From: Bacteroidota bacterium
GTDB taxonomy: Bacteria > Bacteroidota > Bacteroidia > Chitinophagales > LD1
Assembly (NCBI GenBank): GCA_026391075.1
Contig: JAPLES010000085.1
Span: forward strand, 1-39,565
DNA: 39,565 bases
Direction of reading: 5' to 3'
Both the position numbers and the translations under genes were made by a program. The notes beneath the pieces are model-generated. The model was not told the origin of the DNA. It did not search any database and saw nothing but the letters and a program-made list of their open reading frames with translations. Shown in pieces: positions 1,351-6,582 of the stretch. Within the stretch, counting starts at the first letter, position 1, and every line of letters starts with the position of its first letter.

Positions 1351-2031
1351 CTATTTACCCTGTATTTCCACAATTTCAGCTGCCAATTTCTCAGCCCAAA
1401 CTTTATACATTTTACCCGAAGGGTGCAGACCGTCACTAGCAATAAGAGCAGCGTCATTCTTCGCTTCCCTTGAGAACGGTGTAATGTTTATGTAATGAAC
1501 TTTGGCTTCATGAGATTCTTGTTGACCGATAGTATTAAACAAATCTATCGCTTCTCTTATTTTCTTTTCTCCACGTTCATCCTTTAAGCCAAAAGGTGTC
1601 ACTCCCCAATCGGGAATAGAAAGAACATAAACATGATTCACATTTCCGTTGGCGTAATCAATTGAAGTTTTAAGAAGTTCTCGAAATTCTTTCCGATAAT
1701 TTTCTATCTCTCTTACTCTGTATTGATTGTTCACTCCTATCAACAAGGTTACTACATCATAACTTCCTTTTAGATTTGCTCCATTAATAGCTGCCGATAA
1801 CTCGTCTGTTGTCCATCCGGTTTTGGCAATTATAGTTGGTGGCTCAAAATAGATGCCCTTCTTATTAAGCAGCTCAACGGCTTTCATAGGAAAGCGTTCA
1901 TTTTCTTCAACAGCTTCGCCAATGGTATAAGAATCGCCCAGGCAAAGCATGGAACAAATTTTTTCTTTCGTCATAAATGAAGTGTTGATTATCAAAATAA
2001 GGAGAATGAAGGAAACCATTTTCAGATTCAT
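1351..2031 (-). CDS. Secreted SGNH/GDSL-type hydrolase
   Basis: This 226-residue protein has a hydrophobic N-terminus (residues 3-20) that looks like a signal peptide or anchor. It carries the SGNH blocks: GDSY with nucleophile Ser34 (block I), GVNNQ near residue 99 (block III) and DGLHPSG near 200, whose Asp200 and His203 complete the triad (block V). Such enzymes are esterases or lipases, often carbohydrate deacetylases. The substrate cannot be read from the sequence. The gene is divergent from the NRAMP gene, with 81 bases between the two starts, so the palindrome at 2082-2107 could affect both. Confidence 0.85.
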   Translation of the reverse strand: MNLKMVSFILLILIINTSFMTKEKICSMLCLGDSYTIGEAVEENERFPMKAVELLNKKGIYFEPPTIIAKTGWTTDELSAAINGANLKGSYDVVTLLIGVNNQYRVREIENYRKEFRELLKTSIDYANGNVNHVYVLSIPDWGVTPFGLKDERGEKKIREAIDLFNTIGQQESHEAKVHYINITPFSREAKNDAALIASDGLHPSGKMYKVWAEKLAAEIVEIQGK

Positions 2032-2081
2032 TATTCAAAGCAAAGTAAAAAGTCGAAATTATATTTTAGAAATAACGAAAT

Positions 2082-2107
2082 ATAATTTTAGATTTGTCTA
2101 AAATTAT
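2082..2107 (+). promoter_or_regulatory. Palindromic operator overlapping the NRAMP promoter
   Basis: Two perfect 11-bp half sites, ATAATTTTAGA (2082-2092) and TCTAAAATTAT (2097-2107), flank the spacer TTTG. The Bacteroidota -7 element TAGATTTG (2089-2096) lies inside the palindrome. A TTTTAG about 19 bases upstream (2064-2069) could serve as the -33 region. A regulator bound here would block RNA polymerase directly. TTTTAGA/TCTAAAA half sites resemble those of DtxR/MntR-family metal repressors. That the regulator is of this type is an inference from the downstream NRAMP gene. Confidence 0.7.
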
Positions 2108-2112
2108 GAATT

Positions 2113-3984
2113 TTGGGACAACATAAATCGCTAGAAGAAGTTCACGGTACGATAGACACCACCGGAACAGAACATTGGTGGAAACGCTTTTTTCTTTTCG
2201 CAGGACCTGCCTTTCTGGTAGCCGTTGGCTATATGGACCCGGGTAACTGGGCAACAGATATTGCAGGTGGAAGTAAGTACGGTTACTCACTACTTTGGAT
2301 TTTGTTGATGAGCAATTTAATTGCCTTACTTCTTCAAACTCTCAGTGCACGTTTAGGAATTGTAAGAGGTAGAGATTTAGCACAGGCATCAAGAGAAACA
2401 TATCCAACTGCTGTAAATATTTCGCTCTGGGTATTAGCAGAAATTGCCATTGCTGCTTGTGACCTAGCCGAAGTTTTAGGAATGGCAATTGGATTGAATT
2501 TACTTTTTCACTTGCCTATTTTGTGGGGAGTTTCACTGGCCATTCTTGATACCTTTCTCATTCTTTATTTACAGAAAAAAGGAATGCGATATATGGAAGC
2601 ATTTATTTTTTCGTTGGTTGCCATCATTGGTGTTTCGTTTTTTATCGAACTGTTTTTTGCGAAGCCAAATGCAATGGAATTAGTTACCGGATTTATTCCC
2701 GGTTTAAAAGATAGCGGAGCTCTCTATATAGCCATTGGTATAATTGGTGCTACGGTTATGCCACACAATTTGTATTTGCATTCTTCTCTTGTGCAAACGC
2801 GCAGAAATAAAAAAGACGATGCAGGGATTCGAACTGCACTCAAATACAATTTTATTGATTCTGCCATTGCGTTGAACCTTGCGTTTTTCGTGAATGCTTC
2901 TATTCTAATTCTTGCTGCCACCGTATTTTTCAAAAATGGGTTGCACAACATTGTTGAAATTCAAGATGCACACAACATGCTTGCTCCTTTGCTCGGAGAA
3001 AAATTAGCGCCTATACTTTTTGCAGTAGCGTTAATTGCATCGGGACAATCTTCTACAATAACCGGAACCCTCGCAGGTCAAATTGTAATGGAAGGCTACC
3101 TTGATTTACGAATTGCTCCATGGCTGCGAAGATTAATCACACGCTTGATTGCAGTAATTCCCGCCTTCCTTGTTATTTGGTTACTGGGTGAAGATAAGAT
3201 TGGCGACATGTTGATTCTGTCGCAGGTAATACTTAGCATACAACTGGGCTTCGCCATTATACCACTCATTCATTTTGTAAGTGACAAAGAGAAGATGGGT
3301 AAATTTGCCATAAGTAATTTGGTAAAGATGTTGGCATGGCTTTCGGCAGTTATTATCGTTGGGCTAAATATCAAACTCGTTATTGAAACACTTAGCGTGT
3401 GGCATACATCGCTTGTGGGCTACGAATGGGTTTTCAATTTCATTATTATACCTGTAGTTGTGCTGGCTATGCTGTTGTTGGTGTATGTCATCTGGTGTGC
3501 GCTTACAGGTAAACGCTTTGTGAAAGACACTACAACACCTCACGGAAAAGCAGAAGAAATTCCTTTCATTGAAAAGAAAGTTTACGAGCGTATAGCTATC
3601 TGTATAGATTTTTCAAAAAGCGATATCCGCGCCATTACCGAAGGTATTTCGCATGGTGATAAAAAAACAGAATTTTATTTACTACACGTGGTGGAAACAG
3701 CAGGTGCCAGAACTGTGGGTGATGAAATTCAAGATTACGAAACCAGTGAAGATTGGAACCAACTTCAATCGTATGGAAATAAACTACGTGAGCAAGGTTA
3801 TTCTATCACCGAAAAACTCGGCTTTGGTGACCCGAAAAAAGAAATACCACAATTTGTAGCGGAGATAAATGCACAGCTTCTTGTCATTGGTAGACACGGA
3901 CACGGGGGAATAATGGATTTTATTTTTGGTGAAACCATTGCGGTGGTTAGACACAAAGTAAAATGTGCTATGCTAGTAGTTTAA
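2113..3984 (+). CDS. NRAMP divalent metal transporter with C-terminal universal-stress domain
   Basis: This proton-coupled Mn2+/Fe2+ importer of the inner membrane has 623 residues, against about 410-450 for a plain NRAMP. The extra length is a C-terminal UspA-like domain (about 490-623) with a nucleotide-loop-like GRHGHGG and FGET. The NRAMP core shows the metal-binding DPGN in helix 1 (residues 42-45) and MPHN in helix 6 (216-219), plus the conserved RDLAQASRE. The start chosen is a TTG at 2113. An in-frame TGA lies six bases upstream, and the ATG at 2106 opens only a six-codon frame. With the promoter at 2089-2096 the message would be almost leaderless. It heads a tight cluster. MntH-type activity is known for the family; Mn rather than Fe is inferred. 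Confidence 0.92.
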   Translation: MGQHKSLEEVHGTIDTTGTEHWWKRFFLFAGPAFLVAVGYMDPGNWATDIAGGSKYGYSLLWILLMSNLIALLLQTLSARLGIVRGRDLAQASRETYPTAVNISLWVLAEIAIAACDLAEVLGMAIGLNLLFHLPILWGVSLAILDTFLILYLQKKGMRYMEAFIFSLVAIIGVSFFIELFFAKPNAMELVTGFIPGLKDSGALYIAIGIIGATVMPHNLYLHSSLVQTRRNKKDDAGIRTALKYNFIDSAIALNLAFFVNASILILAATVFFKNGLHNIVEIQDAHNMLAPLLGEKLAPILFAVALIASGQSSTITGTLAGQIVMEGYLDLRIAPWLRRLITRLIAVIPAFLVIWLLGEDKIGDMLILSQVILSIQLGFAIIPLIHFVSDKEKMGKFAISNLVKMLAWLSAVIIVGLNIKLVIETLSVWHTSLVGYEWVFNFIIIPVVVLAMLLLVYVIWCALTGKRFVKDTTTPHGKAEEIPFIEKKVYERIAICIDFSKSDIRAITEGISHGDKKTEFYLLHVVETAGARTVGDEIQDYETSEDWNQLQSYGNKLREQGYSITEKLGFGDPKKEIPQFVAEINAQLLVIGRHGHGGIMDFIFGETIAVVRHKVKCAMLVV

Positions 3985-3995
3985 TCCCAGACAAA

Positions 3996-4265
3996 ATGAG
4001 TTGGAAAGAAACAATTTCGAGAGAATTTAAAGTGGCGTTTTCGTTGGCAACACAACCATTTTGGTTTCGCGTTCTAAAATGGGTAATCATTATTGCACTT
4101 TTATATTTTTTGAGTGATTATGTGGCTTGGTGGATTGTATTTTCAGCTATAGCATTGCCGGGTTTATTGCTCCATTTTTATTACCGCACCAAAACAAATG
4201 GCTGGACTAAAAGCTATGGTGCCTGGAAATACGAAAAAGTGTTTTATAAATTAGAGAACGAATGA
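3996..4265 (+). CDS. Small two-helix membrane protein next to the NRAMP gene
   Basis: This is an 89-residue protein starting MSWKETISREF. The longer frame from 3963 would overlap the NRAMP gene by 22 bases, and the ATG at 3996 lies 11 bases after its stop, so I prefer 3996. Two hydrophobic stretches (VLKWVIIIALLYFL and VAWWIVFSAIALPGLLLHF) form a hairpin, followed by a basic and aromatic C-terminus. I do not recognise a named family. Its stop overlaps the next start by four bases (ATGA), so translation is probably coupled and it likely works with its neighbours in metal transport. That role is inferred from position only. Confidence 0.75.
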   Translation: MSWKETISREFKVAFSLATQPFWFRVLKWVIIIALLYFLSDYVAWWIVFSAIALPGLLLHFYYRTKTNGWTKSYGAWKYEKVFYKLENE

Positions 4266-5011
4266 TTAGATACTTTTCTGTTTTTTTACTACTGAGTTTT
4301 CAATTCGTATATTCTCAAGAAAAAATTGAATGCGATCGTCCTGACCAAACGGAAACCCCCTGTATTGTACCTGCAGGACATTTTCAAATGGAAAACGGCT
4401 TCTACTATGTGCACGAAAGCAAAGATGAAAAAGGATTTATTTATCCATCAAGTCTTCTGAAATACGGCATTCAAGATATTGCTGAAATAAGGGTAGAAAT
4501 ACAAAACTCATCTACTTTGCTAAAGGATGAAACGGGAAAGAATTTGATTCATGGTGTTAGTCCAATAACTTTTGGAATGAAATTGAAAATTTGCGCAGAG
4601 AAAAAAAGTGTACCGAAAATATCTGTTATACTAAAGACAAGCATTCCCATTTTATCATCTGAGAAACTAAAAGAAGATTATCCTACTACTCAAATTCGTT
4701 TCACTTTTCAACATACGCTGAGCGAGAAATTTTCTTTTAGCTATAACCTTGGAGGATTGTGGGACGGAACTCAGCAGAAATTCTTCGGGCTTTATACCAT
4801 CACCAGCGGATATTCTATTACCGACAATCTAAGTTGCTATCTGGAGTTTTATGGATTTGTTGCTAAAGAACAAGACCACAGGTTTGATGGTGGTTTTTGT
4901 TTTACTCCGAAAAAAAACGTGATGCTCGATATTTCTGCGGGAATTAGCATTGACAGAACACAACCTTCCTGGTTCAGTGGCTTAGGCATTTCGTTCCTGC
5001 TGCCGAATTAG
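4262..5011 (+). CDS. Outer-membrane channel-like protein (MetA-pathway transporter family type)
   Basis: The 249-residue protein has a signal peptide (MIRYFSVFLLLSFQFVYS, then QEKIECDRPDQTETP). The RPDQTETP start, alternating polar/hydrophobic strands, GLWDGT and the terminal strand WFSGLGISFLLPN fit a small outer-membrane beta barrel. It resembles the PF13557-type proteins often annotated as transporter or phenol-degradation MetA. In this place, coupled by a four-base overlap to the membrane protein and following the NRAMP gene, it may be the outer-membrane pore for the same metal. I infer this; no ligand site is visible. Confidence 0.7.
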   Translation: MIRYFSVFLLLSFQFVYSQEKIECDRPDQTETPCIVPAGHFQMENGFYYVHESKDEKGFIYPSSLLKYGIQDIAEIRVEIQNSSTLLKDETGKNLIHGVSPITFGMKLKICAEKKSVPKISVILKTSIPILSSEKLKEDYPTTQIRFTFQHTLSEKFSFSYNLGGLWDGTQQKFFGLYTITSGYSITDNLSCYLEFYGFVAKEQDHRFDGGFCFTPKKNVMLDISAGISIDRTQPSWFSGLGISFLLPN

Positions 5012-5033
5012 ATTTGTATGTTTGCCCACCGTT

Positions 5034-5429
5034 ATGATTTCTAAATTTAAAATTGGCGATAAAAAAACTTTTGAGCGCATAGTTCGTCAAGAAGATGTTG
5101 CCGCTTTTGAAAGCGGAACAGTACATGAGCTCTACGCTACTTTTGCTATTGCCCGCGATGCTGAATGGAGCAGCCGCTTATTTGTTTTGGAAATGAAAGA
5201 GGAACATGAAGAGGGAATAGGCACTTTCGTAAACGTAAAACATATCTCACCTGCTTTAATTGGCGAAAAAGTTTTGTACGAAGCTGTTTTAGAAGAAGAA
5301 AAAGGAAATGAAATAAATTGTTCTTTCACCGCAAAAGTAGGGAATAGGATAATTGCATCAGGTAGCACAGGGCAGAAAATTTTGTTTAAAAAAAAACTTG
5401 AAAAAATATTTGAGGGTTTGAAGAAATGA
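5034..5429 (+). CDS. Hotdog-fold thioesterase (FlK-like)
   Basis: This is a 131-residue single hotdog domain. The start is taken at the ATG 5034 (MISKFKIGDKKTFERIV) rather than the TTG at 5022. The family features are the lead phrase FKIGDKKTFERIVRQEDVAAFESGTVHELYATFAIARDAEW, a conserved GIGTFVNVKHISPALIGEKV and C-terminal strands ending in ASGSTGQKILFKKKLEKIF. FlK-type and 4-hydroxybenzoyl-type thioesterases split acyl-CoA thioesters in the cytosol; the acyl group here is unknown. It follows the outer-membrane gene by 22 bases and overlaps smpB by four, so it links the metal cluster to smpB on one likely transcript. Confidence 0.8.
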   Translation: MISKFKIGDKKTFERIVRQEDVAAFESGTVHELYATFAIARDAEWSSRLFVLEMKEEHEEGIGTFVNVKHISPALIGEKVLYEAVLEEEKGNEINCSFTAKVGNRIIASGSTGQKILFKKKLEKIFEGLKK

Positions 5430-5887
5430 TTGAGCAGAGTAAGATTAACATACAGAATAAAAAGGCGGGTTTCGAATTTGAAATCATTGACCGCTATGAA
5501 GCAGGAATTGTTTTGCGCGGCAGTGAAATAAAAGTTATACGCAATGGTGGCGGTAGCATCAGCGAAGCATATTGCCTAATGCGCGATGATGAATTGTTTA
5601 TTAAAAACATGAACATTCCCGAATACTCACATGGGGGTTACGCTAATCACATTCCCGATACACAGCGCAAATTATTATTAACAAAAAGAGAACTTGGGAG
5701 AATTGATTCGAAGATTCGCGAGAAGGGTTTGAGTGTAATTCCTCTACGTGTTTTTATGAACAAACGAGGATTTGCAAAAATTGAAATCGGTGTAGGACGG
5801 GGAAAGAAAAAATTTGACAAGCGCGAATCGCTCAAACAAAAAGATACGAAAGTTGAAATTGACAGGGCAATGAAGAAGTATCGTTAA
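5426..5887 (+). CDS. smpB: SsrA-binding protein SmpB
   Basis: SmpB binds tmRNA and brings it to stalled ribosomes for trans-translation. The protein has 153 residues, the usual length. It shows the OB-fold signature (FEFEIIDRYEAGIVLRGSEIKVIR), the middle AYCLMRDDELFIKNMNIPEYSHGG, and the basic tail KKFDKRESLKQKDTKVEIDRAMKKYR that enters the decoding channel. The start ATG overlaps the thioesterase stop (ATGA). Its 3' end overlaps the convergent OmpA-like gene by four bases, so neither gene has an intergenic terminator. No tmRNA gene is in the window. Confidence 0.97.
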   Translation: MIEQSKINIQNKKAGFEFEIIDRYEAGIVLRGSEIKVIRNGGGSISEAYCLMRDDELFIKNMNIPEYSHGGYANHIPDTQRKLLLTKRELGRIDSKIREKGLSVIPLRVFMNKRGFAKIEIGVGRGKKKFDKRESLKQKDTKVEIDRAMKKYR

Positions 5888-6582
5888 AAGGCAATCACCT
5901 TAAATTCGGCTCTTCGGTTTTCTAAATATTTTTCATCGCTGCAAACCACAAACTGATTACTACAATCGCATTGATTAAGCGCTCTAACATTTCCATATTC
6001 CTTCACCGTAATTCTTTTTGTTCCGCCTTTTGAACTTAGGTAACTGCTTATGGCTAATGCGCGTTTTGCTGTCATTCCTTTCTCTTCTCGGCAATCGGCA
6101 TAAACACCAACTTCAATTTGCAGCGTGGCAAAACTTTGCAACATTTTTAAAGCATTATCAAGCGAAGCCAAATTTTCTACACTGAGTTCAGCTTTGCCAT
6201 AATCAAAATACATGGCAGGCAGTAAACCCGACTCAGTATGCTTTACTTTTTCTAATTCTGCTTCGAAAGTTTTTTTTGCTACTACTTCATTTTCTGAAAG
6301 CATATAAGTATAACTCAAATAGCCAATGCTCGAGCCGGAAGAATTTTTACTCACTTCTAAACGGTAACGGGCACCTGTCTCCAACATAAAATCTGCTTGT
6401 CCGGCATCGTTGGTCAAAAGAGTGTATTCGCGCAGCGAATTCAAGTTCTGCAATTTTACCTGTGCTGCAGGAATTGGATTGCGATTTGTTTTGTCGTAAG
6501 CAATCAATTTAAAAGGTACTTCTTGTGCGGCACAAAAGAGAATGCCTGCTGTACATACCAAACTGAGGATGAAATTTTTCAT
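5884..6582 (-). CDS. Secreted OmpA-like protein with N-terminal Ig-like domain
   Basis: The 232-residue protein has a signal peptide (MKNFILSLVCTAGILFCAAQ). Next comes a transthyretin/carboxypeptidase-regulatory-like beta domain at about 22-75 (IPAAQVKLQNL, LLTNDAGQADFML). The C-terminus at about 120-230 is OmpA-like: AMYFDYGKAELSVENLASLDNALKML, then VYADCREEKGMTAKRALAISSYL and YLENRRAEFKVIAF. OmpA domains bind peptidoglycan, and the RAEF ending is typical. The usual NxxLSxxRA helix reads GMTAKRALAISSYL here, a slightly divergent form. The gene is 11 bases from pcm and probably co-transcribed with it. Confidence 0.8.
   Translation of the reverse strand: MKNFILSLVCTAGILFCAAQEVPFKLIAYDKTNRNPIPAAQVKLQNLNSLREYTLLTNDAGQADFMLETGARYRLEVSKNSSGSSIGYLSYTYMLSENEVVAKKTFEAELEKVKHTESGLLPAMYFDYGKAELSVENLASLDNALKMLQSFATLQIEVGVYADCREEKGMTAKRALAISSYLSSKGGTKRITVKEYGNVRALNQCDCSNQFVVCSDEKYLENRRAEFKVIAF

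Follow-up and report, generated by a model that had tools for sequence, protein, structure and literature searches.

Organization of the locus

In the window, that is, the whole 39,565-nucleotide stretch of contig JAPLES010000085.1 from a Bacteroidota bacterium (GenBank assembly GCA_026391075.1), three closely spaced genes encode a transporter of the NRAMP family with a fused Usp domain (NRAMP-Usp), a small two-helix protein, and a β-barrel that is a candidate metal channel, and a perfect inverted repeat precedes the first of these genes (Table 1). The gene positions and the gaps of +11 and −4 bases between the genes, given in a preliminary description of this DNA, were verified on the sequence; that the spacing exceeds chance rests on the relatives considered below and not on a statistic of the spacing itself.

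Table 1. Features of the locus and their positions in the window.
Feature	Position	Strand	Evidence
Candidate DtxR/MntR operator: inverted repeat AATTTTAGA-TTTG-TCTAAAATT whose 9-base arms match perfectly	2084..2105	.	
TAGATTTG, TAnnTTTG element inside the repeat	2089..2096	+	sequence
NRAMP of the MntH type, Usp domain at the C-terminus, start codon TTG	2113..3984	+	Pfam, NCBIfam, relatives
Usp domain, residues 491-623 of NRAMP-Usp	3583..3981	+	PF00582 4e-20
Two-helix, probably membrane, protein of 89 amino acids; lineage-specific accessory	3996..4265	+	relatives, model, dN/dS
COG4313/PF13557 β-barrel with signal-peptide-like N-terminus; candidate outer-membrane divalent-metal channel	4262..5011	+	
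FlK-type thioesterase, possible read-through neighbor	5022..5429	+	PF22636 4.1e-24; synteny
SmpB, possible read-through neighbor	5426..5887	+	PF01668 5.6e-51; synteny

The transporter with a fused stress domain was correctly recognized in that description, as one protein matches both Pfam Nramp (1.6e-134) and Usp. According to NCBIfam, it belongs to the MntH subfamily (597 bits, cut-off 430), and it contains the motifs MDPGNW and MPHN, of which DPGN and MPH are presumably the NRAMP metal-site motifs. Close relatives have TTG, GTG, or ATG at the place corresponding to its start codon. The nucleotide motif of the Usp domain, GRHG-9x-GE, ends in GE rather than in G-S/T, which we take to be canonical, and hence it is uncertain whether this domain binds nucleotides.

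The inverted repeat, absent from the preliminary description, ends 7 bases upstream of the NRAMP start. The element TAGATTTG inside it fits TAnnTTTG, which we take to be the −7 promoter consensus of Bacteroidota; a repressor bound to the repeat would therefore cover the promoter. One promoter shared by the three genes, as suggested earlier, is plausible given a repeat with this element before the start, although a sigma-70-type scan of positions 1500–6000 found promoter-like and terminator-like sites to be rarer than in shuffles. A scan of the window against Rfam yielded no element at the gathering score.

Similar sites were looked for at 39 NRAMP loci (38 fetched from relatives and the window; two out of 39 are without upstream DNA), from 120 bases before to 30 bases after the called NRAMP start. 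The seed motif occurs at 21 of these starts, the window included, compared with 0.05 in shuffles of the same stretches; within the genus, it is found at 16 out of 18 NRAMP loci, the own locus included. In the own genome, the site at 2086 is the only one with fewer than three mismatches. A regulon of several operators there was considered and rejected (eight sites with at most three mismatches, six for the reversed control).

A DtxR-family regulator with helix-turn-helix (HTH), metal-binding/dimerization, and FeoA domains is encoded on another contig of the own genome (G000:C59:25506-26162). Its relatives (cluster c5, taken as a cluster and not scanned member by member for domains) lie within the stretches of 13 out of 39 NRAMP loci, several of them directly adjoining NRAMP. 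For PgMntR, a DtxR protein of Bacteroidota with FeoA domains, binding has been described both to Mn and to the promoter that drives the FB2 operon, FB2 being a Mn transporter (PMC4805248, in part).

Genomic neighborhoods of barrel genes

A contig scan with barrel alignment A1 gave 121 loci, the best 80 of which were used (further, the named loci); these are non-independent, several being near relatives, some stretches end at contig ends, and three loci have no called barrel open reading frame (L087, L088, L114). NRAMP lies within 6 kb of the barrel in 30 out of 80 named loci; thus, the pairing of the two genes, proposed earlier as a matter for a neighborhood search, is supported far beyond the genus. 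In Chryseobacterium and Kaistella, NRAMP is upstream of the barrel in the same direction; in many Flavobacterium loci, NRAMP is divergent from the barrel, and DtxR mostly follows NRAMP-Usp; in 10 out of 80 loci, the barrel is divergent from DtxR, which is followed by ZIP. FeoB is present in the same stretch at 24 of the 40 loci with NRAMP or DtxR–ZIP. At the remaining 40 loci, the stretch examined contains no NRAMP and no DtxR. The NRAMPs beside barrels in Chryseobacterium and Kaistella show no Usp match by tblastn, the one scanned being Nramp only, so the Usp domain was rejected as an essential component.

Several other genes recur near barrels. Behind the barrel, 23 out of 80 loci encode a lycopene cyclase, whose gene often overlaps or directly adjoins that of the barrel (e.g., L092:6732-7868). 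A protein of 398 amino acids precedes the barrels in L135, L139, and L142 and lies one gene further in L147; its L139 representative has no Pfam match. A gene of the same length precedes the barrel in L168, and in L139 and L168 the operator lies between this gene and the barrel. The contigs of loci L097, L100, L102, L118, and L130 come from metagenome-assembled genomes and bear the names Bifidobacterium, Bdellovibrio, Ignavibacteriae, or Chitinophaga in their titles; the first two names, at least, are probably wrong, the genes resembling flavobacterial loci.

Operator-like sites upstream of barrels

A matrix was trained on 19 NRAMP sites from relatives of the window (L080 and L081 in the training set, L130 kept out), and a site was accepted if it scored at least 12 bits in the 300 bp preceding a barrel. 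Such a site precedes 48 out of 80 barrels, whereas shuffled upstream stretches reach 12 bits in 10 cases out of 1975; in 47 of the 48, none out of 100 shuffles scores as high, and in L104, one does. The site is present at 18 out of 30 barrels with NRAMP, 10 out of 10 with DtxR only, and 20 out of 40 with neither. Among the 12 other NRAMP-linked barrels, nine (L080, L081, L087, L095, L113, L114, L115, L130, L143) carry the site before NRAMP, the genes being co-directional; L105 has it between NRAMP and the barrel, outside the counted 48; the site of L088 is below the threshold at 11.3, and L102 has none. Over all 946,167 bp, 70 such sites were counted, and 64 of them fall at barrel, NRAMP, or DtxR starts.

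The orientation of TAnnTTTG was compared in 52 barrel–site pairs, a few of which are duplicates of one site: it is on the strand of the barrel in 29 pairs, never on the opposite strand, and absent in 23, many of these being Cytophagaceae-type loci.

Distribution in the phylum

In a sample of 198 Bacteroidota genomes, the own one included, the barrel (E-value cut-off 1e-20) was found in at least 36 genomes, with up to 13 candidates scored per genome, and NRAMP (cut-off 1e-40) in 66; the two adjoin each other only in the own genome and in G232. We fetched 36 further barrel loci, 35 from the sample and one from G023, and at 10 of them an importer, DtxR, or the site is present; among these, DtxR with split FeoB are found in five, DtxR with ZnuA/ABC (and FeoB) in one, and NRAMP-Usp in one. 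DtxR and split FeoB directly precede the barrel in L172, L174, and L176, and likewise in L175, with VIT1 in between; in L171 they are divergent from it, and the order in L170 is DtxR–barrel–ZnuA–ABC. Eight of the closest 14 phylum loci (profile E-value 1e-40 or better, the own locus left out) are linked in this way, as are two of the other 21, namely L180 (DtxR approximately 2 kb beyond the barrel) and L190 (site).

In L174 and L171, a gene situated between DtxR and split FeoB encodes a second regulator-like protein, which has Fe_dep_repr_C and FeoA domains and no HTH match. G023, a congener lacking the barrel at its NRAMP locus, has a more distant barrel (L201, G023:C445; E-value 2.1e-40) on a short separate contig; the 4 kb examined there contain no importer, no DtxR, and no site.

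In a quick tree of 108 barrel sequences, which has many weak forks and long branches, L173 (NRAMP) is nested among FeoB loci with a Shimodaira–Hasegawa-like approximate likelihood ratio test (SH-aLRT) support of 98, L108 (NRAMP) groups with L116 (ZIP; SH-aLRT 92), and L086 (ZIP) with L097 (NRAMP; SH-aLRT 86). Judging by these comparisons, the importer is interchangeable across barrel loci, while the barrel and the switch stay. A barrel specific to NRAMP was accordingly rejected, as ZIP, FeoB, and ZnuA/ABC are partners as well, and barrel and NRAMP co-occur no more often than expected from the background.

Family and predicted structure of the barrel

The sole Pfam match of the barrel is PF13557 (6.8e-23; 82.4 bits, cut-off 22), and all eight relatives scanned match the same family. 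Alignment A3 comprises the barrel of the window and 66 out of 71 full-length barrels (L085, L104, L152, L153, and L155 left out). The model built from these 67 sequences has a mean predicted local distance difference test score (pLDDT) of 91.8 and 13 strand segments. In the fold search, FapF (Z 24.3, 217 residues, 10% identity) is at the top, tied with the COG4313 channel 4rl8 (Z 23.4, 2.4 Å, 217 residues); searching solved structures by sequence, with the profile of the barrel as the query, gave no convincing match. TonB-dependent receptors are large barrels of 22 strands with a plug domain; such an identity is ruled out for the window protein by its 249 amino acids, the 13 strand segments, and the match to PF13557 only. 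The structure 4rl8 itself is a 12-stranded barrel (PMC4493636, in part).

In the 64 linked sequences, Asp28, Gln29, Thr30, and Glu31 (at least 0.95) and Glu195 (1.00) are nearly invariant, and they are mostly absent from 23 distant unlinked ones. In this comparison of linked with distant unlinked sequences, the residues mark the subfamily rather than the metal link. Conserved Glu44, Glu75, Lys107, Glu195, Asp209, and Asp223 are situated on the more hydrophilic strand faces of the model; taking these faces to be the lumen, the arrangement fits an ion path but is no proof of it.

The small protein and adjacent genes

The small protein, scanned as the longer reading from ATG 3963, has no Pfam or NCBIfam match; the start at 3996 is common to two relatives. 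It is found in three out of 60 genomes and, by profile search within the genus, in three out of 18 (the own genome included in both cases), and where found, its gene is always directly behind NRAMP-Usp. When the gene in the window is compared with that of L035, the nonsynonymous and synonymous substitution rates (dN and dS, the latter near saturation) are 0.11 and 1.68; for L036, they are 0.31 and 1.29. As dN is well under dS, purifying selection is indicated. A single-sequence model has helices at residues 3–18 and 22–87 (pLDDT 82.4, predicted template modeling score 0.40). In congeners G004 and G010, the barrel directly follows NRAMP with no small gene in between; G022 and G024 carry the small gene but have no barrel behind it. 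Since each of the two can occur without the other, the small protein is no fixed part of the system, and the preliminary idea of one three-gene module with this protein as a constant partner was rejected; sequence comparison argues for a real gene encoding a local, dispensable accessory.

The operon may extend into the thioesterase gene (from TTG 5022 or a later ATG) and smpB (4-base overlap), neither of which is part of the preliminary description. The thioesterase gene is in its usual synteny, and no metal link was seen for it. On the other side, a gene of a GDSL-type lipase (1354–2031, minus strand) is divergent from NRAMP; cluster c1, to which it belongs, is represented by 21 members among the 39 NRAMP loci, mostly at the same place, and we know of no metal link for it.

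Proposed function and alternatives

The results computed for the barrel are the linkage of its near subfamily to four unrelated types of importers and to DtxR-family regulators, the shared inverted-repeat site, and a COG4313-type model. Taking all this into account, we consider it probable, though by no means assured, that the barrel is a DtxR/MntR-repressed, TonB-independent outer-membrane channel for Mn2+ and Fe2+, paired with interchangeable importers. When metal is plentiful, metal-loaded DtxR/MntR would bind the repeat, cover the −7-like element, and jointly shut off NRAMP, the small protein, and the barrel. Under metal shortage, all three would be produced; the barrel would admit Mn2+/Fe2+ ions to the periplasm via its charged lumen, and NRAMP, whose transport is proton-driven, would move them across the inner membrane. 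In one branch of the genus, the small protein may act as a local helper of NRAMP-Usp, perhaps aiding its assembly or stability. We infer the repression, the passage of ions, and the identity of the metal, with PgMntR and MnoP as the nearest experimental parallels. The envelope-spanning, TonB-free route of the preliminary description is thereby retained in spirit for NRAMP and the barrel; what is abandoned is a fixed place for the small protein and the specificity for NRAMP.

A number of observations weigh against this proposal. Ten out of 36 barrel genomes carry NRAMP, compared with 66 out of 198 in the background, i.e., there is no excess; 26 out of 36 fetched loci (some in stretches ending at contig ends) and 20 out of 80 named loci (in a tally that misses the site of L091) have no importer, DtxR, or site. 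The barrel is absent from the stretch examined in 35 out of 39 NRAMP loci of the order, two of which have less than 1000 bases downstream; hence, what had been named in advance as telling against the module, namely, absence of the downstream genes near other NRAMP-Usp genes, is largely the case. Linked loci concentrate in the closest profile scores, and therefore the link, as far as can be read from sequences, is a trait of the near subfamily, in which importers are exchanged, and not of the whole PF13557. In the own genome, the exact core is found at one place, as is the reversed control pattern; being equally frequent, they make uniqueness no evidence by itself. In divergent loci, the −7-like element faces away from NRAMP in 18 out of 30 pairs and from DtxR in 11 out of 14, which leaves the promoters of these genes unexplained. 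Glu44, Glu75, Lys107, and Asp223 are also present in unlinked distant members. Finally, the solved COG4313 channel has been considered an improbable route for hydrophilic molecules in vivo (PMC4493636, in part).

The latter point bears on an alternative, in which what the barrel takes up under metal shortage is not the bare ion but a metal chelate or some other ligand, hydrophobic or organic; co-regulation would then follow from the metal that the ligand brings. COG4313 channels have indeed been implicated in the uptake of hydrophobic molecules, and detergent is bound in the structure (PMC4493636, in part). We still find this alternative unlikely, since NRAMP, ZIP, FeoB, and ZnuA/ABC are bare-ion importers by family, and no recurrent ligand-synthesis gene was seen among those neighbors that were scanned, which were only some of them. 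Slightly less likely again is that the barrel moves no metal and maintains the envelope as part of the metal-starvation response. This would suit the 20 out of 40 barrels that carry the site alone, with no NRAMP or DtxR nearby, and the non-metal character of some recurrent neighbors, such as lycopene cyclase; what speaks against it is that barrels are physically paired, time and again, with importers of four unrelated types. The rarity of the barrel at NRAMP loci of the order and the lack of genome-level co-occurrence could also mean that the barrel is beside NRAMP in the genus by an accident of synteny, yet this seems very improbable, since the barrel occurs in several architectures (co-directional, divergent, with ZIP, with FeoB) and the site is also present at barrels that have no importer nearby.

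Returning to the regulated metal channel, a broader claim would be that the COG4313 subfamily comprises widespread TonB-independent Mn2+/Fe2+ channels of Bacteroidota, with a DtxR operator over the −7 element and the importer of the respective lineage (NRAMP, ZIP, FeoB, or ZnuA/ABC); the chances for and against this generalization appear to us about equal. To our knowledge, the passage of free divalent metals over the outer membrane of Bacteroidota has been little studied. If the proposal is true, part of a large family named after phenol degradation would gain a function, that of a dedicated channel under regulation, and the barrel would be a marker of metal limitation in environmental Bacteroidota.

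Comparison with known systems

Among the papers listed in the literature searches, none connects a COG4313/PF13557 barrel with NRAMP, DtxR, or manganese, although a published link may exist. The channels Pput2725 (4rl8), TcpY, and SphA share the Pfam family and fold with the window barrel. A function has been described for few members of the family, and it concerns hydrophobic molecules, whereas the near subfamily studied here is metal-linked; in the solved channel, the lumen is narrow and filled by the N-terminus, and the outer cavity is electronegative (PMC4493636, in part). The amyloid secretion channel FapF, despite being the top fold match, has low sequence identity to the window barrel.

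MnoP of Bradyrhizobium is said to be TonB-independent and co-regulated with MntH by Mur. It is an outer-membrane protein for Mn import, needed in Mn scarcity (PMC9334652, in part). The window barrel would work like MnoP but apparently belongs to another family: it is a COG4313/PF13557 protein, its switch looks to be of the DtxR and not the Fur/Mur type, and its importer partner varies.

The PgMntR–FB2 (FeoB2) operon of Porphyromonas gingivalis likewise combines a Bacteroidota DtxR–FeoA regulator with a Mn importer; no outer-membrane partner is described in the relevant part of PMC4805248, whereas the window locus has the barrel. Outer-membrane components of Mn-limitation systems are also known in the MntR-regulated TBDR-pTFP of S. 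maltophilia (PMC13217887, in part) and MnoT of Burkholderia (PMC13217887, PMC9334652, both in part). However, both TBDR-pTFP and MnoT are TonB-dependent receptors, while the window protein is a small COG4313 barrel.

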